From a virus: a stretch of DNA of 36,094 bases. The position numbers and the translations under genes were made by a program. The stretch is taken from positions 1 to 36,094 of the IMG/VR virus record IMGVR_UViG_3300035698_019470. One strand, given 5' to 3'. This document shows, piece after piece, positions 7,342 through 35,606 of this stretch (positions within the stretch are counted from its first letter, which is position 1; the number at the start of each line of letters is the position of its first letter). Below the pieces are notes generated by a model. The model did no database searches. It was not told the DNA's origin and saw only the letters and a program-made list of their open reading frames with translations.

Positions 7342-7381
7342 TATTCTATCCTTCCTTGCGAGGATGGGGCTGGGTTATTGC
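7334..7381. repeat. 48-bp direct repeat, copy 1 (with 7682-7729)
   Basis: One mismatch to 7682-7729. It contains the ribosome site AAGGAAGG and ATGAAAAT. The two copies flank the pentapeptide-repeat gene, 348 bp apart. Confidence 0.95.
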
Positions 7382-7689
7382 ACCTCTGTAAAGCTTACCT
7401 CTACCGCTTTCCCCCGATAACTTATTTTTGTTTTTTCGAACTTTGCATCACAAAGAATTGTGCGGGATAAGTTCGCAGCGTATAAGTCCGCACCGGATAA
7501 GTTCGCACCGGATAAGTCCGCACCGAATAAGTCCGCACCGGATAAGTTCGCAGCGGATAAGTCCGCACCGGATAAGTTCGCACCGGATAAGTCCGCACCG
7601 GATTCAACCGCAGCGACAACTGTTTTCTTCATTGTTTTGTGTTTTGACTCGAAGACGACTTCTTCAGTAAGTCTATTTAGGATTTTCAT
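7375..7689 (-). CDS. Pentapeptide-repeat protein (104 aa)
   Basis: After a 31-residue lead (MKILNRLTEEVVFESKHKTM), residues about 32-83 are tandem A(D/N)LSG-type pentapeptides (GADLSGANLSGADLSAANL) expected to form a right-handed square beta-helix. Some such proteins mimic DNA and bind gyrase, but most are uncharacterised, and with roughly ten units this one is short. The repeats are also near-identical at DNA level in 15-base steps, so copy number may vary by slippage. ATG has AAGGAAGG upstream. The gene lies between two copies of a 48-bp direct repeat. Confidence 0.85.
   Translation of the reverse strand: MKILNRLTEEVVFESKHKTMKKTVVAAVESGADLSGANLSGADLSAANLSGADLFGADLSGANLSGADLYAANLSRTILCDAKFEKTKISYRGKAVEVSFTEVQ
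7468..7602. repeat. 15-bp tandem repeat inside the pentapeptide gene
   Basis: Plus-strand units such as GATAAGTCCGCACCG follow each other without spacers, about nine times, with single-base variants (TTCG, CAGCG, AATAAG). Each unit encodes one pentapeptide. Contiguous coding units without spacers exclude a CRISPR array. Confidence 0.9.
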
Positions 7690-23395: not shown

Positions 23396-25585
23396 TTACG
23401 CCGTATTTTTCTGCATCGTCCTGTGGTCAAGCGGCTTAACGCCTGCATCATGATAAACCCTGCTGACAAGTCCCATCCTGTCCGGACCGGGGTTGAACCG
23501 TTCAAGCGTTGGCGTTTGCTTCCCGTTAAGGAACGCCACTTCGAGCGTATCTGTCACTCTCGGGTCGGCCGTCAGATACCAGGTCGTAGTCGAATAACCA
23601 GTATAGGTGCTGTTCGACATTCTCGGGTCGCTTACCACCTCGAGCATCAAATCGGCCAATACATTATGCGCCCCGCGTTCGGTTATAGCCGCTGCTGTAC
23701 CTGCAATAATAATCGCAGCCGACTTGGTGAGCTCCATTGCGAACAGCATCAAATCGGGTGGCACAACCAGGTACTTAGGTGCTATTCCGATGGGCTTGCC
23801 GTCCTTGTCGGTCTGTTTGTAGAAAGCCGTTATCGCAGCCCGAAGGGTTGCAGCAGCCAGAGCAGCCGTGGTATTGAGGTTGCTGTGAGTAGCATGGAAC
23901 AGTGCAACGGTGTCCTGCATAGCGCTGTTTGCTAAAAGACTCGTATATACCAGGTCGGCCACTTTCTGGTTGGCTCTTATACCCATATTCCGCGGCTGCC
24001 GGGTCAATGCTCCGAGGTCATCGTTGATAATCTGCTGACGGGTAACGGCGAAGTTCTTCGCATACGTTGAGATGTTGTACTGCTCGTATTCTTCTTCGGC
24101 ACCACCGTAGTGAACCTCGCCGCCGGAACCGACTTCTTCGAGCGAGCCGGTATCGGTCAGGCGGGCCCGCGTAATGGTCTTGAAGTCAGGAGCCGAGCCG
24201 ATATTACACCATTTTATCCACGTCTGCGGAACATCGTTATAGCCCTTTAACAAGCTCTTATTGACGATAGCACCGAGGATAATGGCGAGTGAGCTTGTCG
24301 AAAATGCGGCCCTGATAGTATCTTCACGACCGGCTGGTATCGTTTGTCCTTCGAGCATGATTGCATGGCGGCAGACGTCCAGCAGGTTTATGTCCTGCAT
24401 CTTATCTGCAATCTCGGCCCTTTTGGCGCCTTCTGCCTTGTCGGCCAGGACAACGTCATCAAAGCCCGCCCGAAGCAGTATCGCATCTTCGATAGTTTGT
24501 CTGGTCATCTGGCTGTTATTAACAATTCCAGCCGGTGCGCCGACCTTCGGCCTGTTCTTGCGAACGGCTTCCAGCACCTGGGCACGGACCTCATCGATAC
24601 CCGTCCCTTCCGAGATACATCTTTCGATTAGCTCGGCAGGCACATCGTCACCGGCTAATGTCCGGATAGTATTTACTCTTTCACGTTCGGCCTTAACGGC
24701 GGCCTCGGCGGCCTGGGCCGCTATCTCATCGGCTGAACGTTTTTCATCGCTCGTCTTTGCAGGCGACCCATCCGCTGCCGTTCTTTTTGCGGCCGGAGTA
24801 GCGGCGGCCTTTTTCTTCGCCGCTTCCTCATCGGTTGCTCGTTTCTGCTCGGCCTCGAAATCGGCCTGCAATTTCGTTCTCTGCTCTTCGCTCAGGTCGT
24901 TATAAACCAGGCTTCGAGCTTCTAACCATTTTTTGAAATCCATATTGAGTTCCTTTCGATTAAAATTGATATTTTCATTTCTGTTTTTCGCCGCCTCATC
25001 GGCCCCGACCGAGCAGACGCTGTTCTCTTTGAGCTCCCAGTCGCTAACGATTCTCAGGCTGCGGTCGATAGGCGCTGTAAATTGCTTGCCCATGACCTCG
25101 AAACTTTTACCTTTTTCTATCGTTGTTGACTGATAGACCCTGTAGCCGATAGAGTTGTCCGTTAAATGACCTTCTCTAACCAGGGTCCACGGATGCTCGG
25201 CTACGGATGAGCTTGAAAAAAAATTTCGCCCAACGAGCTGCTCTCCTTCGATTTTGAGATTACGACAGGACCCTAACTGTTTCTGCACCGTCGTTCTGTC
25301 GTGACTGTCCTGCAAGGGGACCTGCCCGTTTGCAGGCAGCCGACATCCCGACATCAGCAGTACCTCTGTTATTATTTCCCACCGCGACCAGTCGAAGACT
25401 TCGACCTGTGCTTCGGTCGCTAATATAGCTTCAATAGACCTGTTCTTTTCGTCCATCGTTTCAACGCGGACGGTATAACTCCGTGTCACTAATTCGCGTT
25501 TGTGCCGGGCGTTCGGCACATTGGGCATGCCGCCGCTGCGGGAACCATTGCCGTTCAATTGCCGTTGTTTTTTATTTTTATTCAT
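23396..25585 (-). CDS. Prohead protease / major capsid protein fusion
   Basis: 729 residues. N-terminal HK97-type prohead protease: VPLQDSHDRTTV with His95, NSIGYRVYQS with Ser145, and SDWELKENSVCSVGADEA. A charged, Ala/Lys-rich linker (about 215-330) follows, like the delta/scaffold domain, and then a capsid domain with TWIKWCNIGSAPDFKTITRA, YAKNFAVTRQQIINDDLGAL and LVYTSLLANS. Such protease-capsid fusions are known as a minority arrangement in phages. Cleavage should free the shell protein during maturation. ATG with GAGGAAAC upstream. Confidence 0.85.
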   Translation of the reverse strand: MNKNKKQRQLNGNGSRSGGMPNVPNARHKRELVTRSYTVRVETMDEKNRSIEAILATEAQVEVFDWSRWEIITEVLLMSGCRLPANGQVPLQDSHDRTTVQKQLGSCRNLKIEGEQLVGRNFFSSSSVAEHPWTLVREGHLTDNSIGYRVYQSTTIEKGKSFEVMGKQFTAPIDRSLRIVSDWELKENSVCSVGADEAAKNRNENINFNRKELNMDFKKWLEARSLVYNDLSEEQRTKLQADFEAEQKRATDEEAAKKKAAATPAAKRTAADGSPAKTSDEKRSADEIAAQAAEAAVKAERERVNTIRTLAGDDVPAELIERCISEGTGIDEVRAQVLEAVRKNRPKVGAPAGIVNNSQMTRQTIEDAILLRAGFDDVVLADKAEGAKRAEIADKMQDINLLDVCRHAIMLEGQTIPAGREDTIRAAFSTSSLAIILGAIVNKSLLKGYNDVPQTWIKWCNIGSAPDFKTITRARLTDTGSLEEVGSGGEVHYGGAEEEYEQYNISTYAKNFAVTRQQIINDDLGALTRQPRNMGIRANQKVADLVYTSLLANSAMQDTVALFHATHSNLNTTAALAAATLRAAITAFYKQTDKDGKPIGIAPKYLVVPPDLMLFAMELTKSAAIIIAGTAAAITERGAHNVLADLMLEVVSDPRMSNSTYTGYSTTTWYLTADPRVTDTLEVAFLNGKQTPTLERFNPGPDRMGLVSRVYHDAGVKPLDHRTMQKNTA

Positions 25586-25603: not shown

Positions 25604-25694
25604 AAGTGCCTAAAATGTAAAGTGCCTAAAGTTATGGATTGTTTTTAACTTTTAACTTTAGCTCACTTTAGTTCACTTTAGCTCACTTTTAACT
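25604..25694. repeat. Composite intergenic repeat (9-mer and decamer modules)
   Basis: Between portal and capsid genes. Module 1 (plus GTGCCTAAAATGTAAAGTGC), a TATGGATTG box, then tandem decamers of the type CTTTAGCTCA. The decamers extend into the 3' end of the portal gene and give its last codons and stop. Confidence 0.85.
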
Positions 25695-27458
25695 TTAGTT
25701 CCCATTTCCATTATCATTATCTTCTTCATCATCTTTTTCTTGGTCTTTGCCAATACTTACCAAGTTGACACCGTTTTTCCGTACAGCCACATTACCCCAC
25801 TTAACTGCATCTAATCCAAGCACCGCTCTAACCTCGTTTATTGTAAGAATTCCCGATTCGATATGGTACTGCAGCACATCCTGGTCGTTGAATCGCAGTT
25901 GTTTCCCTTCCGGCGGCTCTTCTGAGAATCCCAGCGCCGCCCTCGCTTCCGTCACCGCTATGGGCACTCCTGTGCGGACCGCACGGGCGATATTTTCCAT
26001 TTCATTTTTATGCTCACCTTCATCGATAACCCCCAGCTCCTTCATTAAATCCAGTTCTTTTTTCGACTGGCGGATTTCGCGTTCCCAGTCTTTGCCCTGC
26101 GATGCGAATTCGGATGCGAGCGTTGTCGTATGGTTTGCCAGTCGGATTTTCTGTGCAGCCGCCTCTTTTTTCGGGTCCACGTGCTCGAAACCCGGCCAGA
26201 ACCATTCTAACCGGATTTGCTTTTTCGCCCTGCCCTTGAAAAAATCCGGCAGCAGTATTGCCTCTTTATACCAGGCAAAAAATACTCTATTGAGCACTTT
26301 ACGTGTTATCCAGCCGCGGGCATTTTTAATTGATTTGAAGTAGCTCTGATGGTCTAATCTGCCCGAGGCATAGTTATACCCGGAGCTGTTGGCCGCTGCG
26401 ATGTTGAACGGCATACTTATACATCGTGCCGCCTCATTGAGCAGCTCTCTCTTAAATTCCTTATAGGTCCCCGCCGGATGTTCGGCCTTTAATTGTGCCA
26501 TTTTCGTACCGGCAGGCAGGCCGAGCAGTGAGTTGCGAGGTATTTCAATCTCATCACCCACCGTGGTAACATCTTCTTCCTCGCCGCTCATCTCCGATTC
26601 CATTACCCCGGCCATATTGGCCGCCTGCTCGGCGGCATCGAGTGTCGCCAATGTGAACCTTCGCAGTTGTGCGAATATCGCCAATGCCGGCGTGAACAGG
26701 GGCACACCGCGCGTCTGGCCCGCCCGCCTGGGCCGATAGAGGTGTATAACGTAGGCCGCAGGCACTTTATCATATTCGCCGAACCCGCCGATGGCATAAG
26801 ATGAGCCGGGATGTTTTTTTAATACGTAATAGAAAAGCCGCCTGCCGTTTTCATCGACCTCGATACCATCCCTGATTTTATCGTTGATGAACACCTGACC
26901 GAACAAATCGCCGGGCGTCGCTATTCTATCGGACTCGACAAGCTGCAATCGCAGCGTTACTTCTTTTTTGTTTACCGCCGGCCATTTTGTTTCTGCGCTC
27001 TGTGCCGACTGCAAAACGATAAAGGCCTCTCCCGACTGGCACTGCTCAATCCCGCACATTTGCCATAGCATTTCCTGCAAAGACTCCTGACCGCTAATAT
27101 CACAGTCCTCACGCCAGCCCGCGAATCTATCCTCCAGCTCTTTATCGAAATCAATATCTCCTGAATCGAGCTGCGGTATAGGTCCCGTGCCCACCAAATC
27201 ATCCGAGAGTGTATCTGCGATTCCCGAGGCATAACAGTTGTTACGCATTTCATAGCGGCATCTGTTTCGCAGTGTCGCAAGGTCCGCGAAGATGATACTG
27301 TCGGCATCGCGTGCATCGGCATAAAGCCAGTGGTTTGCGTTATGGCGATTGGTCGCGGCGGCGTCGTAGCTTCTCGTATTGCGTGTCGGCCTATCCAGAC
27401 GGGGCCTCGCCACGGTTGGTCGCCTACTACGTATTATATTGAATCCCAGTATCTTCAT
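25695..27458 (-). CDS. Portal protein, lambda gpB type
   Basis: 587 residues. N-terminal MKILGFNIIRSRRPTVARPR, then LYADARDADSIIFADLATLR, NCYASGIADTLSDDLVGTGP and QLVESDRIATPGDL are typical of lambda-family portals. The dodecameric portal forms the DNA entry pore. A basic helical part (about 430-530) and an acidic tail (EKDDEEDNDNGNGN) follow. The ribosome site is weak, so its start at 27458 is tentative; gpW-like stop lies 15 bases upstream. Confidence 0.85.
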   Translation of the reverse strand: MKILGFNIIRSRRPTVARPRLDRPTRNTRSYDAAATNRHNANHWLYADARDADSIIFADLATLRNRCRYEMRNNCYASGIADTLSDDLVGTGPIPQLDSGDIDFDKELEDRFAGWREDCDISGQESLQEMLWQMCGIEQCQSGEAFIVLQSAQSAETKWPAVNKKEVTLRLQLVESDRIATPGDLFGQVFINDKIRDGIEVDENGRRLFYYVLKKHPGSSYAIGGFGEYDKVPAAYVIHLYRPRRAGQTRGVPLFTPALAIFAQLRRFTLATLDAAEQAANMAGVMESEMSGEEEDVTTVGDEIEIPRNSLLGLPAGTKMAQLKAEHPAGTYKEFKRELLNEAARCISMPFNIAAANSSGYNYASGRLDHQSYFKSIKNARGWITRKVLNRVFFAWYKEAILLPDFFKGRAKKQIRLEWFWPGFEHVDPKKEAAAQKIRLANHTTTLASEFASQGKDWEREIRQSKKELDLMKELGVIDEGEHKNEMENIARAVRTGVPIAVTEARAALGFSEEPPEGKQLRFNDQDVLQYHIESGILTINEVRAVLGLDAVKWGNVAVRKNGVNLVSIGKDQEKDDEEDNDNGNGN

Positions 27459-27473
27459 TATTCAAATAGGCAA

Positions 27474-27698
27474 TTAACTCCGTGCTCCGCCTGATTTCAA
27501 ATGTGTTATCGTAAAGCCCTTTGCGTTATTCGATTTGGCCGCCAGGTGTGCGTAATGCTTTCTCGCATCGAGCAGTTCCTTCAAACTTCGATACGTTATC
27601 GACCGGCCGGACGCCGAGGTTATTTGCACCGGTTTTCCCGCCCAGTCATTTATCGCATCATCAATCGTCGCTATGATTGTCGTATAGCTGGCACTCAT
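27474..27698 (-). CDS. gpW-like head-tail joining protein (74 aa)
   Basis: Start at 27698 chosen over a longer frame to 27845 because the longer form runs through the terminator hairpin. SASYTTIIATIDDAINDWAG, PVQITSASGRSITYRSLKEL and LDARKHYAHLAAKS is the short helix, strand, strand, helix plan of gpW. It sits directly before the portal gene. No clear ribosome site; its upstream sequence is a phrase-like ATACGAGATACG string. Confidence 0.65.
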   Translation of the reverse strand: MSASYTTIIATIDDAINDWAGKPVQITSASGRSITYRSLKELLDARKHYAHLAAKSNNAKGFTITHLKSGGARS

Positions 27699-27738
27699 AA
27701 TTCGTATCTCGTATCGCGTATTGCGTTTTTCGGGCAAC

Positions 27739-27780
27739 AAAAAAAGCGACAAGTAAGTGAGTAGGCACCTACTTGCCGCT
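27739..27780 (-). terminator. Strong Rho-independent terminator
   Basis: Minus-strand arms AGCGGCAAGTAGGTG (27780-27766) and CACTTACTTGTCGCT (27759-27745), with two G-U pairs, a six-base loop and a T run. It separates the terminase operon from gpW and portal, so a promoter must lie after it or readthrough is required. Confidence 0.8.
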
Positions 27781-28000
27781 TTAATTGTTCTTACGTCAAC
27801 TGCCCACCCGCCGACAGGCAATTGAACCCAGTATTCAATTTTCAATTTACGTTCAAACCATATATCAAGTATCTAACAAGTACTCAGAAGTGGTCAACAC
27901 AAAAATGGTGAAATTTGCTGATTTTGAAGCATTTGGGCTACATCTGTACCAAAATATTCATTTTTAACATATTTTTCTCGCAATATGCCGGTGGCTGCCA
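27781..28000. other. Non-coding gap between zinc finger gene and gpW
   Basis: No gene is supported. It holds low-complexity AT-rich sequence with a near-palindrome (GGTTCAATTGCC on the minus strand) and no tRNA fold. I see no clear promoter. The adjacent block 28001-28063 is the composite repeat. Confidence 0.4.
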
Positions 28001-28063
28001 GTTATAGTTTTAGAGTGCCTAAAGTGCCTAAAATGTAAAGTGCCTAAAGTTGTGGATTATTTT
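28001..28063. repeat. Composite intergenic repeat with DnaA-box-like motif
   Basis: Contains ATAGTTTTAGAGTGCC and the 9-mer module. TGTGGATTA at 28051-28059 differs from the TGTGGATAA DnaA-box consensus by one base. Confidence 0.8.
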
Positions 28064-28240
28064 TCATTTCTCTATCGTCTCTTTCGTCCTCACCCTTTTG
28101 CCGCAGTACCGGCATATTTTATACCTGCGCACCGCTCCCGGGATATTCACCGTTTTCACCGTATCCCAGGGATGACCTCCTTCCGTGCGAAAATCAGTGC
28201 ATCCACACCTGGGACATTTTATTCCTTGTTTTTTACTCAT
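28064..28240 (-). CDS. Ogr/Delta-like zinc finger (58 aa)
   Basis: MSKKQGIKCPRCGCTDFRTE, then a basic middle with TVNIPGAVRRYKICRYCGKR: C-x2-C ... C-x2-C, as in Ogr/Delta transcription activators and related small phage zinc ribbons, which activate late promoters in P2-like phages. The ATG at 28240 lies inside the repeat sequence (TATAACTATGAG), and there is no ribosome site. Placed between gpW and the large terminase. Role likely regulatory, unproven. Confidence 0.6.
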   Translation of the reverse strand: MSKKQGIKCPRCGCTDFRTEGGHPWDTVKTVNIPGAVRRYKICRYCGKRVRTKETIEK

Positions 28241-28351
28241 AGTTATAGTTTTAGAGTGCCTAAAGTGCCTAAAATGTAAAGTGCCTAAAGTTATGGATTG
28301 TTTTTAACTTTTAACTTTAGTTCACTTTAGCTCACTTTAGCTCACTTTTAC
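28241..28351. repeat. Composite intergenic repeat
   Basis: Full form: TTATAGTTTTAGAGTGCC, the 9-mer module, TATGGATTG, two AACTTTTAAC-like steps and decamers CTTTAGTTCA and CTTTAGCTCA, ending at the terminase stop. Confidence 0.9.
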
Positions 28352-30298
28352 CTATCTCATTCTTCTTCTTCTCTGCAGTTCGGACAATGTGATTTTTTTC
28401 TTCTTTGCCGCAGCCGGTTTTATTCTTTTTTCTCCGGGCCTTTTCAGATAATGCACACCCTTATAGAATCCGGCTGCTGCGCAAAGGACAGCCGTATCAA
28501 GTGAGTGCGTAGGTACTCCGGTACCGACTAGCTTCCAGAGCCAGCGTGCATTGCCCCTCGTATCGCGGACTTTAATCTTCTGCTCGTTCGTAAATTCGGT
28601 GAAGTAGTAATACGGTATCTCATCGTAGAACGATGTAAGGGTTTTTGCGATAATTTTGTCGTTTTCGTCCCTTCGTCCCTCGACCCAGCTTGTCACCTGG
28701 TTCTTGAAGTAGAATGTATCTACAATCATAAGCTGCATCCCCCTATACCTTACCTTTTTATGCCTCAGCCGGTACTCGGTGGCCGTTTCCAGGTCCGAGG
28801 GCTGTAGTGGTTTCAATCGCGGCCCGGGCTCCCCTTTCGTCGGTATGGTAAATCCCGGCCTCTGCCGGCAGTATTCGTAAACATCGTCCGGCTCGTAGCC
28901 GGAATCGATGAACATTACCATCACCGCTAAGTACGGTTTTTCTTCATTGCTCATACCATCCGCCCAGGGGAACGGGCTTAGCAGTATTTCTTCATCGAGT
29001 TTATCGAAGCTCGGCACCGAGCCGGTGGTTATAACCCAGTTTCGCATCCCGTACCCGAACCCCCGCACCTCGTAATCGATTCGCACAATGCCCCGCGCCT
29101 TCGATTTATGGTAGTCGCAGCCGGCGACCAGAACGAGCGTCTCCGGCGGCACGGTGGCCTTATTGAATCCGCCCTTTAATTTATGAAGCTGGCTCGACTT
29201 GATTTTCCTTCCCGTCTCCTCGAACGGTTCGGCTAATATGGCGTTTTTGAAGTCCATTAACTTCCCGATAGCGATACCTTCTTCGGTATTGGCCTCGAAC
29301 CATTGCGCCATAATCTCGGACCAACTGACCCACGGACTTATATGGGCTGAATAACTAAAGCCACTGCGTCTCTTCGAGCGTTTCGCCAAACCGTGAACAT
29401 TGCCATCGGGAGCGATCGTCTGTCCTTCAGGCAGCCATATACCCGCTGCAACGAGCTTCTCTTTAACCTCCTCTCGGAACTTATAGCCGCAAACCTCGCA
29501 TTCGTACCACACATCCTGTTTTTCGCGTATTTCGTCCGGGTCCCGAAGTGTTTTGGGAACCTTCAACTGAACGTGTTTCCAAGTCCGATACTCTCCGCAG
29601 TGAATACACGGTAAATAATACCGCTGCATATTGGAGCGTTTGTACGAGATGGTTATATGACCGGTGGCTGTAGTTGGCGTCGATATTTTAACGATTTTCC
29701 TGTCCCAGAACGTAATGGTCCTCTTTGTCGCCAAATCGATTGGGTTCGCCTCTTTGCCTGCGAATGGCGGGTATTTATCAGTTTCATCGAGGAACAGGTA
29801 ACGTATCGGCTTCGTACCTAATCCCGCCGGTGAATTACTGCCGGCGAAGTAGAGCGTCATTCTATCGAAAAAGAATTCCCGCTTACTCAAGTCCCAGCTC
29901 CTGCCGGTCGTATGGCTTGATAGCTCACTGCTTGCCTGGACCATCGGCCTCAGCCGGTTCTCCACCGCATAATCGCAATCTTCATCGCGGGGCATTACCA
30001 ATAGCGCCGGCGATGGGTCTTCGGAAATGCAATTGCCCAACATATTATAGAGCGATTCTGTCCCACCCGATTGCGGGGGCTTTACAACGGTGATTTCTTC
30101 TACTTCCGGGTCGGTAAAGCAATCCATAATCCCCCGCAGGTAGGGCGTTCTGTCCGTTCGCCAGGGCCCGGGCTCTGCCGAGGTCCGACTATCGAGGACG
30201 CGGTGCCTGTCCGCCCACTGGCTGACGGTTATTTTTTCCGGCAGCCGCCAGGCGGCCTTTTCTGACTCCGTCCAGATTTTCGTAAGCGTCCGTACCAT
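28352..30298 (-). CDS. terL: Terminase large subunit, GpA family
   Basis: 648 residues. Walker A-like VVKPPQSGGTES (71-82), Walker B YLFLDETD with Asp171-Glu172, and a zinc-type pair Cys231/Cys234 and Cys267/Cys270. The nuclease domain has acidic residues in VAGCDYHKSKARG and MFIDSGYEPDD, and HSLDTAVLCAAAGFYKG. It packages DNA into the prohead with ATP. GpA-type terminases usually cut at cos sites. The ATG lies at the edge of an intergenic repeat with no ribosome site. The first 12 bases recur at 32007-32018. Confidence 0.92.
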   Translation of the reverse strand: MVRTLTKIWTESEKAAWRLPEKITVSQWADRHRVLDSRTSAEPGPWRTDRTPYLRGIMDCFTDPEVEEITVVKPPQSGGTESLYNMLGNCISEDPSPALLVMPRDEDCDYAVENRLRPMVQASSELSSHTTGRSWDLSKREFFFDRMTLYFAGSNSPAGLGTKPIRYLFLDETDKYPPFAGKEANPIDLATKRTITFWDRKIVKISTPTTATGHITISYKRSNMQRYYLPCIHCGEYRTWKHVQLKVPKTLRDPDEIREKQDVWYECEVCGYKFREEVKEKLVAAGIWLPEGQTIAPDGNVHGLAKRSKRRSGFSYSAHISPWVSWSEIMAQWFEANTEEGIAIGKLMDFKNAILAEPFEETGRKIKSSQLHKLKGGFNKATVPPETLVLVAGCDYHKSKARGIVRIDYEVRGFGYGMRNWVITTGSVPSFDKLDEEILLSPFPWADGMSNEEKPYLAVMVMFIDSGYEPDDVYEYCRQRPGFTIPTKGEPGPRLKPLQPSDLETATEYRLRHKKVRYRGMQLMIVDTFYFKNQVTSWVEGRRDENDKIIAKTLTSFYDEIPYYYFTEFTNEQKIKVRDTRGNARWLWKLVGTGVPTHSLDTAVLCAAAGFYKGVHYLKRPGEKRIKPAAAKKKKITLSELQRRRRMR

Positions 30299-30405
30299 AG
30301 TTATAGTTTTAGAGTGCCTTTGTGCCTTTACGGCTCTGCATCTTTTTTTTATTTTTAGCCACAGATTTCACTGATTAACACTGATTTTTAACTTTTAACT
30401 TTAGC
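30299..30405. repeat. Composite intergenic repeat, third family included
   Basis: Begins with TTATAGTTTTAGAGTGCC, then TGCCTTTGTGCCTTTACGG, GCCACAGATTTCACTGATT and decamers. The GCCACAGATTTCACTGATT family resembles phrase-like repeats seen in many environmental genomes. Confidence 0.85.
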
Positions 30406-30915
30406 TCACTTTAGCTCACTTTTCGTGTTCCCGGTGAAGCCGGTAATAATCATCCGATTCTCGTCATCGAGCAGTGCCTGTATCTTCCGCGGGTCTTTAA
30501 GGGCTGCCAATCGTTTCGCAAGTTTCCTGCCCTGGCCGAGCCAGGCGCGTTTGACCGCTAATATTCTTGCGATTCGGGCTTTCTCGATTGCCTCAAGGGG
30601 CAGTAACTGCCCCTGCTTGATTTTCAATTCGATTTCCAGTAGTTTCGCCTTCGTCTCTTTGTAATTTGCCTCAGCGCTTTGCAGCCGGGCTTTATCTTCG
30701 GTAATTTGGCTGCCCTTATTGGCTTTGAATATATCGAGCATGCTTCTAATATAGAAATCATCTTCGGTCTTCGGCATGCCCTCATCTTCCCACCGCCGGA
30801 TTGTCCGGGTATTGACGCCGGCGTATTCGGCGGCCTCTTTCTGGGTCTCGATGAGCTGCGAAGCGGCAATCACTGCCTTATTGCTTTGTGCCTTTGTGCC
30901 TTTGCGCCTCTGCAT
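30406..30915 (-). CDS. terS: Terminase small subunit, Nu1-like
   Basis: Helix-turn-helix core LIETQKEAAEYAGVNTRTIR and RWEDEGMPK, then a long coiled coil (AEANYKETKAKLLEIELKIK) and a C-terminal basic tail. It would bind the cos or pac site and recruit TerL. The start is unclear: ATG 30915 has no ribosome site, and the first codons lie in a phrase-like repeat; GTG 30867 with AAGG next to it is an alternative. The last residues KSELK and the stop are also written by the decamer repeat. Confidence 0.75.
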   Translation of the reverse strand: MQRRKGTKAQSNKAVIAASQLIETQKEAAEYAGVNTRTIRRWEDEGMPKTEDDFYIRSMLDIFKANKGSQITEDKARLQSAEANYKETKAKLLEIELKIKQGQLLPLEAIEKARIARILAVKRAWLGQGRKLAKRLAALKDPRKIQALLDDENRMIITGFTGNTKSELK

Positions 30916-30958
30916 CTTTTTTTTATTTTTAGCCACAGATTTCACTGATTAACACTGA
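30886..30958. repeat. Phrase-like intergenic repeat
   Basis: TGCCTTTGTGCCTTTGCGCC then a T run and GCCACAGATTTCACTGATTA. It overlaps the small terminase N-terminus. Confidence 0.85.
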
Positions 30959-31180
30959 TTATGTTTTCACTTCTTCAATAGTTATTTTAATGTGTTTGCT
31001 TTCGCCAGGGGCAAGTTTTATACCATAGAAACGTAAAAAAGGACGATAACATATATATTTTGCTACGCACCTACCATTAAGAAAACTAAGGACAAGAAAC
31101 CTACGGACTACTTTTTTTCGACCTGGCCGATTAGAAATAAATCTCCATCGCCGAACGATAAATTCTTTACTTTTTTTCAT
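30959..31180 (-). CDS. Small basic protein (73 aa)
   Basis: Start at ATG 31180, nine bases after AAAGGA. MKKSKEFIVRRWRFISNRPG, RKKVVRRFLVLSFLNGRCVA and an acidic C-terminal segment (GESKHIKITIEEVKT). Highly basic, perhaps nucleic-acid binding. First gene after the terminator at 31198 and before the small terminase. Unknown family. Confidence 0.45.
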   Translation of the reverse strand: MKKSKEFIVRRWRFISNRPGRKKVVRRFLVLSFLNGRCVAKYICYRPFLRFYGIKLAPGESKHIKITIEEVKT

Positions 31181-31197
31181 TTTCAATGTCCTTTCAT

Positions 31198-31224
31198 AAA
31201 AAGGGCGGACAGCATCATCCGCCC
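31198..31224 (-). terminator. Rho-independent terminator
   Basis: Minus-strand GGGCGGA (31224-31218), eight-base loop, TCCGCCC (31209-31203) and TTTTT. It follows the hairpin-rich 3' region of the 190-residue gene and ends its transcript. Confidence 0.75.
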
Positions 31225-31333
31225 CTTCGCCTTTGCTTTGCTAAGCCATGCCGCGCTTAGCCTTTGCCTTGCTTTGCCAAGCTCTGCCTTTGCTGTGCCA
31301 AGCAGTGTCCCGCCGCGCTTGGCGCCGCCATTG
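31225..31333 (-). ncRNA. Hairpin-rich untranslated region, possible small RNA
   Basis: Two short stem-loops: GCCAAGC/GCTTGGC at 31297-31323 and GCTAAGC/GCTTAGC at 31240-31261, with a further GCCAAGC at 31276-31282, then the terminator. The sequence is a low-complexity string of GCTTTGCC-like steps. A processed 3' small RNA of about 120 bases is possible; an alternative is slippage-prone junk. Confidence 0.35.
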
Positions 31334-31906
31334 CTATGTTATTTCTCGCCAGATAAAACGTCCTTTCCCACTGTTACGCCACTGACCAAGACCACGTAAG
31401 GCCCCGTAATCAAGCCATTTTTTGAGAAAGGGTGCTAAATCTTTATTCAATACAAGAATTTCAATCTGGATTTTAGTCCCTACCGGCGCGGTTTCCGACC
31501 TTGCCAAAGCAGCCCGCTCACCTCGTGCTGTCTGCGCCCGTAACGGACGTTCGCAAAAAGAAAGTTCACCATCTTTAGGTAATTCAAGCGGAATCCGTCT
31601 CGGCGTTACGAAAATCAGGCCATCAATCGCCTTCTTATGGGCTTTCAGTCCATGTTTTTTCGTGCGATTCAGCATACTGCAGGAATCCTTGAAAAAGCCC
31701 TTGACCTGATAATCCCATAATATGGGTAAATCATCGCCGTTTCTCGAAAAGTATGTCGTGGCCTTTTTAATTTGTTCAGGTATGGCATCTATTTCGTCAT
31801 CCTGAATACCATCAGGGTGATTGCTTGTGATAAACTCCTCTACCAATTCTTTATCACCAGGCAGTGTTCCCAACAATTCTTCCGTAAATTCGATTTCGAT
31901 TTTCAT
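31334..31906 (-). CDS. Conserved phage protein with glycine-rich loop (190 aa)
   Basis: MKIEIEFTEELLGTLPGDKE starts a pattern I recognise from uncharacterised phage proteins (DYQVKGFFKDSCSMLN, KAIDGLIFVTPRRIPLELP, ERPLRAQTARGERAALARSE). The end DYGALRGLGQWRNSGKGRF has a Gly-rich turn like those in RAMP or ferredoxin-like nucleic-acid proteins, but catalytic residues are not evident. Function unknown. Ribosome site GAGGAGT upstream. The stop is followed by hairpins and a terminator. Confidence 0.65.
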   Translation of the reverse strand: MKIEIEFTEELLGTLPGDKELVEEFITSNHPDGIQDDEIDAIPEQIKKATTYFSRNGDDLPILWDYQVKGFFKDSCSMLNRTKKHGLKAHKKAIDGLIFVTPRRIPLELPKDGELSFCERPLRAQTARGERAALARSETAPVGTKIQIEILVLNKDLAPFLKKWLDYGALRGLGQWRNSGKGRFIWREIT

Positions 31907-31980
31907 AATTACTCCTCGTTAAAAAACTTATCTTGCGTTATGTCACGTTACTACACTTTTTTTCACAATTCACCCCTCAC

Positions 31981-32061
31981 TTTTCGTGTCCTTTCGTGTT
32001 GTAAGCGTCTGTACCATGGTTATAGTTTTAGAGTGCCTAAAGTGCCTAAAATGTAAAGTGC
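31981..32061. repeat. Composite intergenic repeat with a copy of the terminase start
   Basis: TTTTCGTGTCCTTTCGTGTT, then 32001-32037 matches 30282-30318 with two differences, including GTAAGCGTC-GTACCAT, which is the terminase start codon region. The 9-mer module follows to 32061. Confidence 0.85.
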
Positions 32062-32322
32062 CTAAAGTTTTTGTTTCGCCTTGAATTCGCCACACCAGCC
32101 ATCAAGCCAAATTCGTTGGGGCTGAGGAACATCTATCTTCTCACTATCATCATTTGGTGGATACCTGTGGCAAAAACCATAAACACATTCTTCGTCAATC
32201 TTGTTTTGTATAGCTTCTATAGACCATCCTTCGGCTTTGAGTTTATCCCACTCCTCTTTTGCAAGGTACGATACGTAATTTTCCTTCTCATACCATTCGC
32301 AGTATTCACATCTTCTTTCCAT
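32062..32322 (-). CDS. Small Cys-rich protein (86 aa)
   Basis: ATG 32322 with AGGAG upstream. MERRCEYCEWYEKENYVSYL, a helical middle, EECVYGFCHRYPPN and WLDGWCGEFKAKQKL: C-x2-C-W, C-x3-C and a last Cys give a likely zinc site. This resembles the small Cys-rich proteins of mobile elements that read CEYCxxY ... CxxxP ... WCGEF. No known function. Confidence 0.55.
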   Translation of the reverse strand: MERRCEYCEWYEKENYVSYLAKEEWDKLKAEGWSIEAIQNKIDEECVYGFCHRYPPNDDSEKIDVPQPQRIWLDGWCGEFKAKQKL

Positions 32323-32337
32323 TTTCAAATCTCCTTT

Positions 32338-32402
32338 TTTTAGCCACAGATTTCACTGATTAACACTGATTTTTAACTTTTAACTTTAGCTCACTATAGT
32401 TC
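32338..32402. repeat. Intergenic repeat (GCCACAGATTTCACTGATT plus decamers)
   Basis: The decamer part overlaps the 3' end of the 106-residue gene; its last codons and TAG derive from it. Confidence 0.85.
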
Positions 32403-32714
32403 AATATAATCAGCCGCACCATCTTCGTCCCAAACGGCATCACCACGAAGAACATCTATCATCTCAATCACATAGCCCTCAACCGTTTTGTCATAAACCT
32501 CGTCAATAACTTTCTTGTGTTCTTCAAGCTCGGCTTGGAGCTCTATATATTCCTGTGCTGAAACATCTCTGTTTGTTTCTAAAACTTCCTTCTCGGCCTG
32601 GAGTTCCCGTATGTCGGCTATCATTTTGTATTGCCTTGAGATCGACTGCTTATTTGAAGCTTCATTGGCCTTGACTAAATTATCATACTCAAATTCGTAT
32701 TCTTCAGAACTCAT
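32394..32714 (-). CDS. Coiled-coil protein (106 aa)
   Basis: MSSEEYEFEYDNLVKANEAS, then a long Glu/Leu-rich helix (IRELQAEKEVLETN, EYIELQAELEEHKKVIDEVY) and an acidic end. Unknown function. AAGGAGAAACAAA ribosome site. It lies between the DnaA-like gene and the small Cys-rich gene. The stop is written by the repeat. Confidence 0.5.
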   Translation of the reverse strand: MSSEEYEFEYDNLVKANEASNKQSISRQYKMIADIRELQAEKEVLETNRDVSAQEYIELQAELEEHKKVIDEVYDKTVEGYVIEMIDVLRGDAVWDEDGAADYIEL

Positions 32715-32790
32715 TTTGTTTCTCCTTTCCCAAAAAACCGGCGGGCAGGATTCTTACCTGCTCAGCACAAGGACATAACTTGCATTTCTG

Positions 32791-32965
32791 CAACTTTAGT
32801 GCATTTGCCCATTTGCCCCTTTTTTTTATTTTTCGCCACAGATTTCACTGATTAACACTGATTTTTAACTTTTAACTTTAGCTCACTTTAGCTCACTTTA
32901 ACTCACTTTTAACTTTAGTTCACTTTTAACTTTAGCTCACTTTAGTTCACTTTAGTTCACTTTAC
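32791..32965. repeat. Longest decamer array, next to the DnaA-like gene
   Basis: GCCACAGATTTCACTGATT, two AACTTTTAAC steps, then about seven decamers (CTTTAGCTCA, CTTTAACTCA, CTTTAGTTCA) interleaved with TTTTAACTTT. It reaches into the 3' end of the DnaA-like gene. The iteron-like appearance next to an initiator-like gene suggests a possible origin, unproven. Confidence 0.8.
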
Positions 32966-33596
32966 ACTTTGTTTGCTTATACCTTTTCTTCGCATCCATA
33001 TAGCATTTTCTCATCTCCGCTCGTTCATAGAATTCATAAGATATTCGCTCGGTACTAAACTTTCTGAGTGCCAATAAAGGCGTTGCATGTGATTTGGCAT
33101 TGATTATTCGTGCGATGGCCTGTATTTTTAGTCCATATCGCAGGTGGAGTATAAAGCAGCAAACCGCCCTGGCTTCGACTATCGGCGGCTTCTTGCACCC
33201 GCAGCTCTTGAGCTGAGCGGCCGTAACGCCCGTATCATCTTCGATAAGCTCATAAAGTCCTTCGAGTCCTTCCAACGCACGTTCAACGGCGTTTAATTTT
33301 CTGGCAGCGCTATGTGATAATACCGCTTTACCCTTATCGTTTTTCAGCTGAGCTATCAATTGTTGTTTTTTGATTTTGCAATCGAATCCTTTGAACATTC
33401 GTGTCTTCAGCCATTTGTCGAATTCGTCAGCCGTTTCCGGCGGCAGCAGGATCGCTGCGGATTCATTTCTGTAGTTCAGTTCGATTTTGATACCATCATC
33501 GGTCAAATCGAAGCACCGCAGCGTATAGCCGCTGGTAAACTCAAACGGCGATAAAACGGCACTTTCAACAGATATAGTTCGTAGTTCATTATTCAT
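32952..33596 (-). CDS. Protein with DnaA-domain-IV-like C-terminus (214 aa)
   Basis: Residues about 150-190 read VEARAVCCFILHLRYGLKIQ and IARIINAKSHATPLLALRKF, resembling the helix-turn-helix and SHxT signature of DnaA domain IV, which binds DnaA boxes. The AAA+ ATPase part is missing. The N-terminal 120 residues are unrelated (FDLTDDGIKIELNY, KGFDCKIKKQQ). An origin-binding or repressor role is plausible. Start and stop lie in repeats. This is one of the more surprising genes here. Confidence 0.5.
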   Translation of the reverse strand: MNNELRTISVESAVLSPFEFTSGYTLRCFDLTDDGIKIELNYRNESAAILLPPETADEFDKWLKTRMFKGFDCKIKKQQLIAQLKNDKGKAVLSHSAARKLNAVERALEGLEGLYELIEDDTGVTAAQLKSCGCKKPPIVEARAVCCFILHLRYGLKIQAIARIINAKSHATPLLALRKFSTERISYEFYERAEMRKCYMDAKKRYKQTKCKVN

Positions 33597-33601
33597 AGTT
33601 C

Positions 33602-33720
33602 ATCCATAATAAAAGAGTGCCTAAAGTGCCTAAAATATAAAGTGCCTAAAGTTGTGGATTATTTTTAACTTTCAACTTTAGTTCACTTTAGCTCACTTTA
33701 GTCATTTTAATTCACTTTTC
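33602..33720. repeat. Composite intergenic repeat with DnaA-box-like motif
   Basis: 9-mer module, TGTGGATTA at 33653-33661 (one base from TGTGGATAA), then decamers CTTTAGTTCA and CTTTAGCTCA and a TTTTCGTATTCTTCGTG phrase. Confidence 0.85.
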
Positions 33721-33888: not shown

Positions 33889-34770
33889 TCAATCAAACAA
33901 AGCCATATGGCCTGTTCTCTGATTTACCAATAATACTTCCTTGACCCTCATATCGTTTTGTCCACGCCTGCCTTGATGCGCAAGGCTTTTGGAAATCACA
34001 ATTTCATGACGTTGCCAGTTAGGATAGAGTTCGTTAAGCTTGGGATGGTCGTAGTAGCTGACAACTACGCGGGCCTTACGAAAACGATACAGCATTTCTG
34101 CAAGTCGCGCATAGTCGTCCGGCTCAATCTTATTGACGTAATCTTTTTCATGTTCGATATATGGCGGGTCGATATATAACACCGTCTTTGGCTCATCTTC
34201 AATACGCGGTATAATTTCAAACGCATCCCGCTGCAGGATGGTCACCTGTCGCAGGCGGCGCCGCCAGGCCGGTATGGATTCTACAACCGATTTCCACCTT
34301 GTTGCCGCATGTCCGCCCCTTGATGTGAACCGCAAACAGTAACCCTGATTATATCCTGATGTGCCGGCAACTCCATTTCGCCCCATCCAAGAACAAACGA
34401 AGTAATCATAAGCCCGGTTCAAGTCGGGCTCGCCGGCATCAAAGCAATGACCTCTTTGGCGGCATCGTTCGGCCGCTTCAATAAATATCTGTTCGTGCAT
34501 CAGTGTCCGCCGCAACTTGCGGTAAAGTTTCGGTGCGAGCCGCTCATCCCGGACCACAAAAGCCAAGTTAATCAAATCTCCGTGCAGGTCATTGACGGTC
34601 TCCATCACACAGGGGGGCTTGGCCATAAGGACGGCCATTGAACCGCAAAACGGCTCCCAGTAAGCTCGATGAGCGCCGAGCAGCTCGACAATCCTCGGCG
34701 CCAGATTCCGCTTCGCTCCAAACCAGGGGGCAATCGCCTTAATTTTCATTACTTCAGCTTCCTTGCTCAT
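33889..34770 (-). CDS. N6-adenine DNA methyltransferase (D12/Dam class)
   Basis: 293 residues. Motif I region IAPWFGAKRNLAPRIVELLG and WEPFCGSMAVLM binds S-adenosylmethionine; motif IV is VLYIDPPYIEHEKD with DPPY at 201-204; ends KARVVVSYYDHPKLNELYPN. It would methylate adenine in a short sequence I cannot predict. The first ATG overlaps the cytosine enzyme's stop by TAAATG, so they are coupled. No restriction enzyme is found next to them, which fits an anti-restriction role. Confidence 0.9.
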   Translation of the reverse strand: MSKEAEVMKIKAIAPWFGAKRNLAPRIVELLGAHRAYWEPFCGSMAVLMAKPPCVMETVNDLHGDLINLAFVVRDERLAPKLYRKLRRTLMHEQIFIEAAERCRQRGHCFDAGEPDLNRAYDYFVCSWMGRNGVAGTSGYNQGYCLRFTSRGGHAATRWKSVVESIPAWRRRLRQVTILQRDAFEIIPRIEDEPKTVLYIDPPYIEHEKDYVNKIEPDDYARLAEMLYRFRKARVVVSYYDHPKLNELYPNWQRHEIVISKSLAHQGRRGQNDMRVKEVLLVNQRTGHMALFD

Positions 34771-35606
34771 TTATTCGCCTCAAAAACTGCCTCTAAAATA
34801 ATTTCCCGGACAGCTTGCTCGACTTGAGCAGCAGCTGTTTTCCGGTTCATCATAATTTCCAGCTTGGGGTTAAACCATACATCATCTACTTCTTTCCTGG
34901 TAAAGCCGTGTGTTGCAAAACACTTCACAGCGACAAGCGAACCAGGGATAAAGTTTCCTTTGGCTTTCTTATCACGGCCAAGTTGGGTTGGCGAAAAATG
35001 CGTAGGGACAGGATATTCAGGGATGCGGTTCAGGTCGCAACGTGCACCCTCTATCAATACCCTTACCCTTCGCTGCGGCACTCCGTAGCTGGCACAATCC
35101 AACAGATTAAACCTTACCACATATCCGCACTTCTCAAGGTTTTTCAATAATAGCCGGAAGAAGTCTTTGAAACTCATTAGTCCCCTGACGTTCTCGATAA
35201 CAAAATATCGTGGCTGTATTTCTTTCACCATCCGGACAAACTGCCACATCAGTTTCGAGCGGGGGTCTTTTGCAGAGCGGGTTGAGCTGGCTGTTGAGAA
35301 TCCCTGGCAAGGCGGTCCGCCGCTCAGCACGTCAAGCTGGCCTTTAGCCAGGCCAACTTGTTTCAAAAGGTCTTTTCCACTCAATGAGCAAATATCGGCC
35401 TGGATTATTTTCATTTTCGGAAATGACCTGGCTTTGTTCGCTTCCAACGTCGAGATACACCACTTGTCAATTTCAACAGCCGCCACCACATCAAGTCCGG
35501 CCTGTTGAAGACCCAATGCCATTCCGCCAGCACCGGCGAATAATTCTATCGCTTTTAATTTTCGTTTTTTCATACTTACGGGGGTTCGCTTTGCGCTCAA
35601 TTTCAT
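34767..35606 (-). CDS. C5-cytosine DNA methyltransferase, lacking motifs IX and X
   Basis: 279 residues. Motif I IELFAGAGGMALGLQQAGLD; motif IV GGPPCQGFSTASS with catalytic Cys100; motif VI FVIENVRGLMSF (138-140 ENV); motif VIII YGVPQRRVRVLIEG. After these only about 85 residues remain, with THGFTRKEVDDVWFNPKLEI, and neither RExxxxQxFP nor GNAV is visible. The target-recognition part is therefore short or missing. AAGGTGG precedes ATG 35606. It may be inactive, or need another subunit. Confidence 0.8.
   Translation of the reverse strand: MKLSAKRTPVSMKKRKLKAIELFAGAGGMALGLQQAGLDVVAAVEIDKWCISTLEANKARSFPKMKIIQADICSLSGKDLLKQVGLAKGQLDVLSGGPPCQGFSTASSTRSAKDPRSKLMWQFVRMVKEIQPRYFVIENVRGLMSFKDFFRLLLKNLEKCGYVVRFNLLDCASYGVPQRRVRVLIEGARCDLNRIPEYPVPTHFSPTQLGRDKKAKGNFIPGSLVAVKCFATHGFTRKEVDDVWFNPKLEIMMNRKTAAAQVEQAVREIILEAVFEANK

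Follow-up and report, generated by a model that had tools for sequence, protein, structure and literature searches.

Why should nearly every gap between the genes of one part of a phage genome be filled with short, phrase-like repeats? The question is raised by the virus record IMGVR_UViG_3300035698_019470, analysed here as a window of 36,094 bases, in which a block of packaging and accessory genes (25604-33720) carries mixtures of a 9-mer, decamers and longer phrases. A first-pass annotation of the window proposed that these were spacers spread by recombination, protein-binding iterons or RNA-processing sites. The reading that we favour, at a probability of roughly 0.6, is that the repeats are phage-borne copies of widespread mobile or selfish intergenic hairpins.

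The block is as densely furnished as first described. Units lie in 9 of its 11 gaps (gaps of at least 10 nucleotides (nt) between 25.6 and 33.9 kb, around a gene set that we selected ourselves from the open reading frames (ORFs)), the two without them being 27459-27473 and 31187-31333. Confinement to the block also holds, since the window has 14 copies of the 8-mer CTAAAGTG/CACTTTAG, every one of them within 25604-33720. The units were said to be oriented alike, and the strand bias is real: all 16 matches to AAAGTGA[AG]CTAAAG and all 4 copies of the TCAGTGAAATC phrase are on the minus (coding) strand, as are 9 copies of GGCACTTTA, with 1 on the plus strand (26761, within the portal gene). What does not stand is a single orientation. 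Read on the opposite strand, GGCACTTTA is TAAAGTGCC; the decamer, taken in a shifted frame, is TAAAGTGAGC or TAAAGTGAAC; and the 9-mer and decamers are one word, CTAAAGTG, followed by a spacer of 1-2 nt (C or AG/AA), in opposite orientations. GGCACTTTA is thus the reverse complement of the decamer core, and the complete composites are therefore inverted repeats. They are not the work of chance, because the reversed control pattern has 0 matches and the complete composites fold more stably than nearly all dinucleotide shuffles. Nor is placement between stop and start codons strict: the stop codons of two ORFs, which end at 30406 and 32394, lie in or abut decamers, and the CAGTGAAATCTGTGGC phrase extends into the start of the ORF beginning at 30945. 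Gap by gap, the phage elements are:

25604 to 25694, minus strand: complete hairpin element 1, between the stop of the portal gene and the start of the head-protease gene (repeat family D2).
28014 to 28063, minus strand: right half alone (linker and 3' arm).
28249 to 28353, minus strand: complete hairpin element 2, between the stop of the terminase large subunit gene and the start of a 58-aa ORF.
30314 to 30422, minus strand: chimera of left arm, CAGTGAAATCTGTGGC phrase, GGCACAAA phrase and common end (family D3).
30884 to 30961, minus strand: CAGTGAAATCTGTGGC and GGCACAAA phrases without CTAAAGTG words, overlapping the start of the ORF for the terminase small subunit.
32001 to 32068, minus strand: right half (32018-32068) with a 38-nt tract (32001-32038) (family D8).
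32346 to 32397, minus strand: left half and CAGTGAAATCTGTGGC phrase; one 10-nt unit is absent here in virus L009.
32830 to 32970, minus strand: longest left-arm array and CAGTGAAATCTGTGGC phrase, downstream of the ORF at 32952-33596, with a period-10 array at 32875-32964.
33613 to 33718, minus strand: complete hairpin element 3 (families D2 and D4).

Element 1 runs from a 5' arm of decamers through a linker to a 3' arm of 9-mers. On the coding strand it folds at a z-score of -4.07, with 1 of 500 dinucleotide shuffles equally stable; the values are -3.48 (2 of 500) for element 2 and -4.84 (0 of 500) for element 3. The remaining unit-bearing gaps hold right halves, left halves fused to two other phrases, or phrases alone. 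No strong hairpin was found in the 30314-30422 chimera (z -1.05), whose common end adjoins the terminase large subunit start, and the whole 32830-32970 gap folds at z -1.32. That such units were spread by recombination is supported by the phage itself. Near-identical composites occupy several gaps (element 2 is 97% identical to element 1 across 91 nt), the tract at 32001-32038 is 95% identical to 30282-30319 and includes the opening 17 nt of the gene for the terminase large subunit, and virus L009, which is 99.9% identical to the window over 11,981 bases, differs from it by two substitutions and one 10-nt unit.

The word is found far beyond phages, and the large number of bacterial genomes that carry it rules out a phage-only feature. 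When species genomes of bacteria and archaea were scanned with AAAGTGARCTAAAGTGARCTAAAG, at least 117 stretches matched. By our reading of the database labels, those listed include 24 from Planctomycetota, 9 from Bacteroidota, 4 from Nitrospirae, 4 from Calditrichaceae, 4 from one further isolate and 71 others, nearly all from Deltaproteobacteria or Desulfobacterota; one more listed stretch comes from what we take to be the phylum Omnitrophota. The word pair was present in 14 of 14 genomes checked, at 2 to 231 per genome (reversed control 0), in 20 of 22 genomes of the family of G007, and in 31 of 161 genomes of the Phycisphaerae order to which G001 belongs (control match in 2). Because the closed genome of Desulfonema magnum has 8 word pairs, the word is not a binning artefact. 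All 8 lie in about 25-30 kb of the 8-Mb chromosome (4034701-4064814; L147, L148), a clustering that looks like arrival with an acquired island. Among the viruses of IMG/VR the pair is rare, with 14 stretches (L009 among them), and a megablast of the block against the phage collection found no match. Related phages have different words or none, which rules out conservation of the gap elements among them.

Host elements have an orderly anatomy. Host ORFs were called by a simple script that takes the longest first. The 115 clusters of three or more words divide into 66 inverted, 48 one-armed and 1 mixed, and TAAAGTG comes first and CACTTTA second in 66 of the 66 inverted ones. Inverted elements span 57-329 nt and are built of repeated words; their arms are not mirror copies of each other (0 of 18, which rules that out). 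Where a one-armed cluster is flanked by two genes, it points inward from the closer one in 34 of 39 cases (p 2e-6). Tandem gaps hold 75 clusters, convergent gaps 11 and divergent gaps 9, while 18 clusters have no flanking gene and 2 overlap coding sequence; divergent gaps are under-used (odds ratio 0.43, p 0.02). Folding at z<-3 was seen in 39 of 58 gaps with words and 49 of 190 without, in 4 of 19 gaps with one or two words and in 4 of 120 coding pieces.

A more exact regularity emerges when the arms are laid against each other. Units are 9 or 10 nt long, and opposing units were paired from the loop outward in 66 elements (63 host, 3 window) detected more strictly than in the 115-cluster survey, whose equal number of inverted clusters is coincidental. 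A 10-nt unit stood opposite a 9-nt unit in 89 of 126 pairs, where arm permutation expects 49% and 0 of 20,000 permutations reached the observed value. The stem is then a series of 8-bp helices with 2x1 internal loops between them. The rule holds for hosts alone (86 of 123 pairs), for planctomycete loci together with those of one further isolate (14 of 16, P 0.0002), for the other loci (72 of 107, P 0.0003) and for distinct code pairs alone (56 of 83, P 0.00045). It recurs in a second set of 17 further elements from fresh loci, some of them in the same or sister genomes as the first (30 of 41, P 0.0009); all of these P values are optimistic, as elements share descent. The effect disappears on shifting the register by 1 or 2 units (P 0.10, 0.39, 0.88, 0.62), and this dependence on register indicates that the folded pairing is constrained, being seen either by selection or by a copying process. 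With respect to transcription, the longer units are in the 5' arm of 18 and the 3' arm of 21 among 44 tandem elements, a lack of preference that favours a DNA-level or symmetric cause.

The elements also come and go. What fills a gap changes more quickly than the genes on either side of it, and arms gain or lose whole units. One orthologous gap was compared in 17 distinct versions, 7 of which are 56 nt or shorter. In G007 and G174 it holds a CTAAAGTG shell enclosing a GGAATTG-type inner hairpin; in G172 the shell encloses a GATTGGTT-type inner hairpin, an arrangement also present in G176, together with an extra 39-nt palindrome; and G008 and G170 have different fillings but keep a right-arm remnant. 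The close pair G007 and G170, whose flanks are mostly 97-98% identical (93% at one site, the minimum), has one orthologous gap of 327 nt versus 0 nt, TAA directly abutting ATG in the empty version, a second of 262 nt versus 4 nt, and a third in which a 153-nt CTAAAGTG hairpin stands opposite a 146-nt hairpin of a different word. One hairpin has been cleanly deleted in G174, its right end left behind. In the G170 gaps orthologous to L064:2167-2319, L064:3216-3251 and L048:2651-2681 the word is again another, with TGGAGTAC facing ACTCCATC-type units, and there too the cores pair and the spacers do not. Because orthologous gaps are empty, differently filled or deleted in close relatives, a gene-specific role of the gap elements is unlikely. 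The first-pass annotation had named conserved position in relatives as support for function, and units scattered in host gaps without it as a refutation; sister species in fact carry different hairpins or none, and gene-specific function is largely refuted.

How would a phage come by such elements? The source of its copies may be a Phycisphaerae host, after which DNA tracts copied from one gap to another would have raised their number. In the hosts, hairpin-forming DNA would move and insert where harm is least, between stop and start codons, often beside or within older hairpins, and would be lost by hairpin deletion. The 10-against-9 rule might be kept either because whatever copies the elements recognises them in their folded form or because perfect palindromes are destroyed.

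A host in the Phycisphaerae group is probable on several grounds. Among 148 genomes from the order of G001, 11 have terminase relatives, of which four are strong (49-64% identity). The distance between the arms is 39 nt in the window, a median of 32.5 in planctomycete copies (n=18) and 79.5 in Desulfobacterota copies (n=42). Of the 25 host loci that align best, 14 carry a planctomycete label in the database; two more of these 25 (L060, L122) belong to an isolate whose genome, G005, is placed in the order of G001. By spacing and alignment, the window copies fit the planctomycete form rather than that of Desulfobacterota. An independent prophage behaves similarly: its contig in G127 uses the heptamer GATTATTG, which has 60 matches in that genome, 57 of them outside the contig, whereas G141 has 2 matches and six other genomes have none.

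Several results count against mobile or selfish hairpins. This exact prophage was found in no host genome, and the host link stands by inference. Y1_Tnp matches occur in 20 of 22 genomes, but copy number does not follow their per-genome counts (Spearman 0.27, p 0.22), and in G160, with 70 word pairs, no Y1 match was found; a Y1/RAYT driver is unsupported, and the Y1 genome counts tie no mobilising gene to the elements. No target-site duplication was seen at three exact or near-exact junctions (overlaps 1, 1 and 2 nt). Nesting rests on one insertion, the sole readable case (39 nt, G176 versus G172), which lies at the base of the apical stem and outside the loop; insertion at the exact loop tip was rejected on this single case. 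Element ends and length are variable, in contrast to a classical MITE (miniature inverted-repeat transposable element), and the 10-against-9 rule could also reflect selection for a cellular function.

The strongest competitor holds that these are functional RNA hairpins, acting as terminators, processing sites or operon 3'-end stabilisers, with the presence of a hairpin conserved and its sequence not. Strong folding of word-bearing gaps, avoidance of divergent gaps and constraint across the stem all agree with this, and energies of whole tandem gaps slightly favour folding of the sense strand (34 versus 19, p 0.03), as do those of the strong subset (25 versus 11, p 0.0095), both before any multiple-test correction. 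It is nonetheless unlikely, given how often orthologous gaps are empty or filled differently and how common stemless half elements are in hosts and window. Element-only energies give p 0.09 and arm type is unbiased to transcription, leaving a strand-specific RNA function unsupported by element-only tests. No Rfam match was found, and none of the three window hairpins coincides with any of the 18 terminator-like sites of a scan that allowed loops of 3-8 nt only. The RNA-processing sites of the first-pass annotation are not demonstrated by elements whose position is unconserved in relatives and whose arms, in 44 host elements, have no preferred orientation.

A less probable alternative is that these are plain tandem repeats, expanded by slippage and shuffled by recombination, with hairpins as a by-product. 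Near-identical viruses do differ by one unit, one-armed arrays are common (48 of 115), and Calditrichaceae L110 has long one-word arrays. Independent slippage would not be expected to give the fixed inverted order in 66 of 66 clusters or a register-specific link between arms, nor does it sit easily with whole elements present in one sister species and absent from another. Iterons would bind a protein for replication or partition of the phage, perhaps one encoded by 32952-33596, which adjoins the longest array and has a weak helix-turn-helix match to Bac_DnaA_C (24.6 bits, cut-off 31.5). They are very improbable, as the word is strewn over hundreds of gaps of unrelated bacteria, varies in copy number and place, and is missing from related phages with the same packaging genes.

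Mobile or selfish hairpins have known counterparts, and the nearest differ in instructive ways. REP, BIME and REPIN palindromes with their RAYT transposases (passages of PMC3733652; see also PMC2817692 and PMC3116915) are likewise intergenic, hairpin-forming, present in many copies per genome and spread over several phyla including Planctomycetes; they sometimes sit in or beside other palindromes and are thought to be miniature mobile DNA. They are single palindromes of 20-40 bp, whereas the present elements have arms of tandem words under a 10-against-9 rule, with a copy number that does not follow Y1 transposase counts. Nor do their ends bear a GTAG or CGTC tag: GTAG lies within 22 nt of 8 of 120 ends (control windows 9) and CGTC of 3 of 120 (control 14). 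The TAACTGA direct repeats of Beggiatoaceae, Cyanobacteria and Bacteroidetes (passages of PMC4679880) are also short tandem words in gaps near start codons, as in the window and host loci, patchy over phyla, mixed with other words and varying in whole-unit steps, and in neither case is the mechanism of transfer known. They are heptamers in almost wholly direct repeats, in contrast to phage-borne 9/10-nt units with inverted arms and a pairing rule.

MITEs, including those of Thiomargarita (PMC4853749), and Rickettsia palindromic elements (PMC3733652) are, in the passages concerned, noncoding, dispersed inverted repeats, some within or beside genes. The inverted clusters (66 of 115, in a single order) correspond to the terminal inverted repeats of a MITE, but here the ends are not fixed and the junctions compared have no target-site duplication. 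Intrastrand triplex motifs of E. coli (passages of PMC4666352) are also intergenic structure-forming repeats with raised local sequence variability; with a G/C-run motif of about 37 nt, they differ in sequence and structure. The 10-against-9 rule is not described in any of these passages, those of PMC6390638 contain nothing on such repeats, and open-licence PubMed Central text yielded nothing relevant on the words or such elements beyond the papers cited. A further comparison is with related phages or prophages, two of which (L013 and L167) carry heptamers of STRR style. The STRR repeats of cyanobacteria are intergenic arrays of heptanucleotides, and inverted pairing is not known to belong to their definition; the window units are not heptamers, which occur in the related phages only.

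A bolder proposal, which we advance tentatively and at less than even odds, is that these repeats form an undescribed cross-phylum class of "zipper" hairpins, in which paired word cores alternate with spacers held unpaired by a register-specific 10-against-9 length code. Such hairpins would nest, outpace species divergence in gene gaps and travel via phages that use the word of their host. The code, if true, would imply that the folded hairpin is read by some process or factor dedicated to it. The 10-against-9 rule itself is exact and open to test, and it applies to noncoding DNA that is probably mobile. Hairpins of this kind would account for much of the puzzling phrase-like intergenic DNA of sediment bacteria and their phages. 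A phage is in any case seen to carry such elements, and repeat words can mark a host group. The origin of the repeats is directly testable, because several carriers share one family and the Desulfonema magnum isolate has a closed genome.

The genes around the block, all read from the same strand, are:

23396 to 25585, minus strand: head protease/capsid gene.
25695 to 27458, minus strand: lambda-type portal gene.
28352 to 30298, minus strand: gpA-type terminase large subunit gene.
30406 to 30945, minus strand: terminase small subunit gene.
33889 to 35606, minus strand: two DNA methyltransferases.

The phrase GTGAAATCTGTGGCTAAAAA, or a variant of it, extends into the first codons of differing phage genes, as if supplying a new gene start: that of the terminase small subunit (30945) here, and that of the terminase large subunit in the relatives L013, L014, L015 and L168. 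The gap at 31187-31333 is GC-rich and has a different imperfect repeat, AGCAAAGGC, with a terminator-like stem at 31224-31207. Elsewhere in the window are further pairs of near-identical tracts (96-98%) that have nothing to do with the CTAAAGTG word, at 8689-8846/9509-9666, 6438-6532/6891-6985, 5177-5257/6525-6605 and 7334-7381/7682-7729, and a pentapeptide-repeat-like ORF (SGADLSGANL) at 7375-7689, with a 15-nt tandem DNA repeat at 7465-7603.

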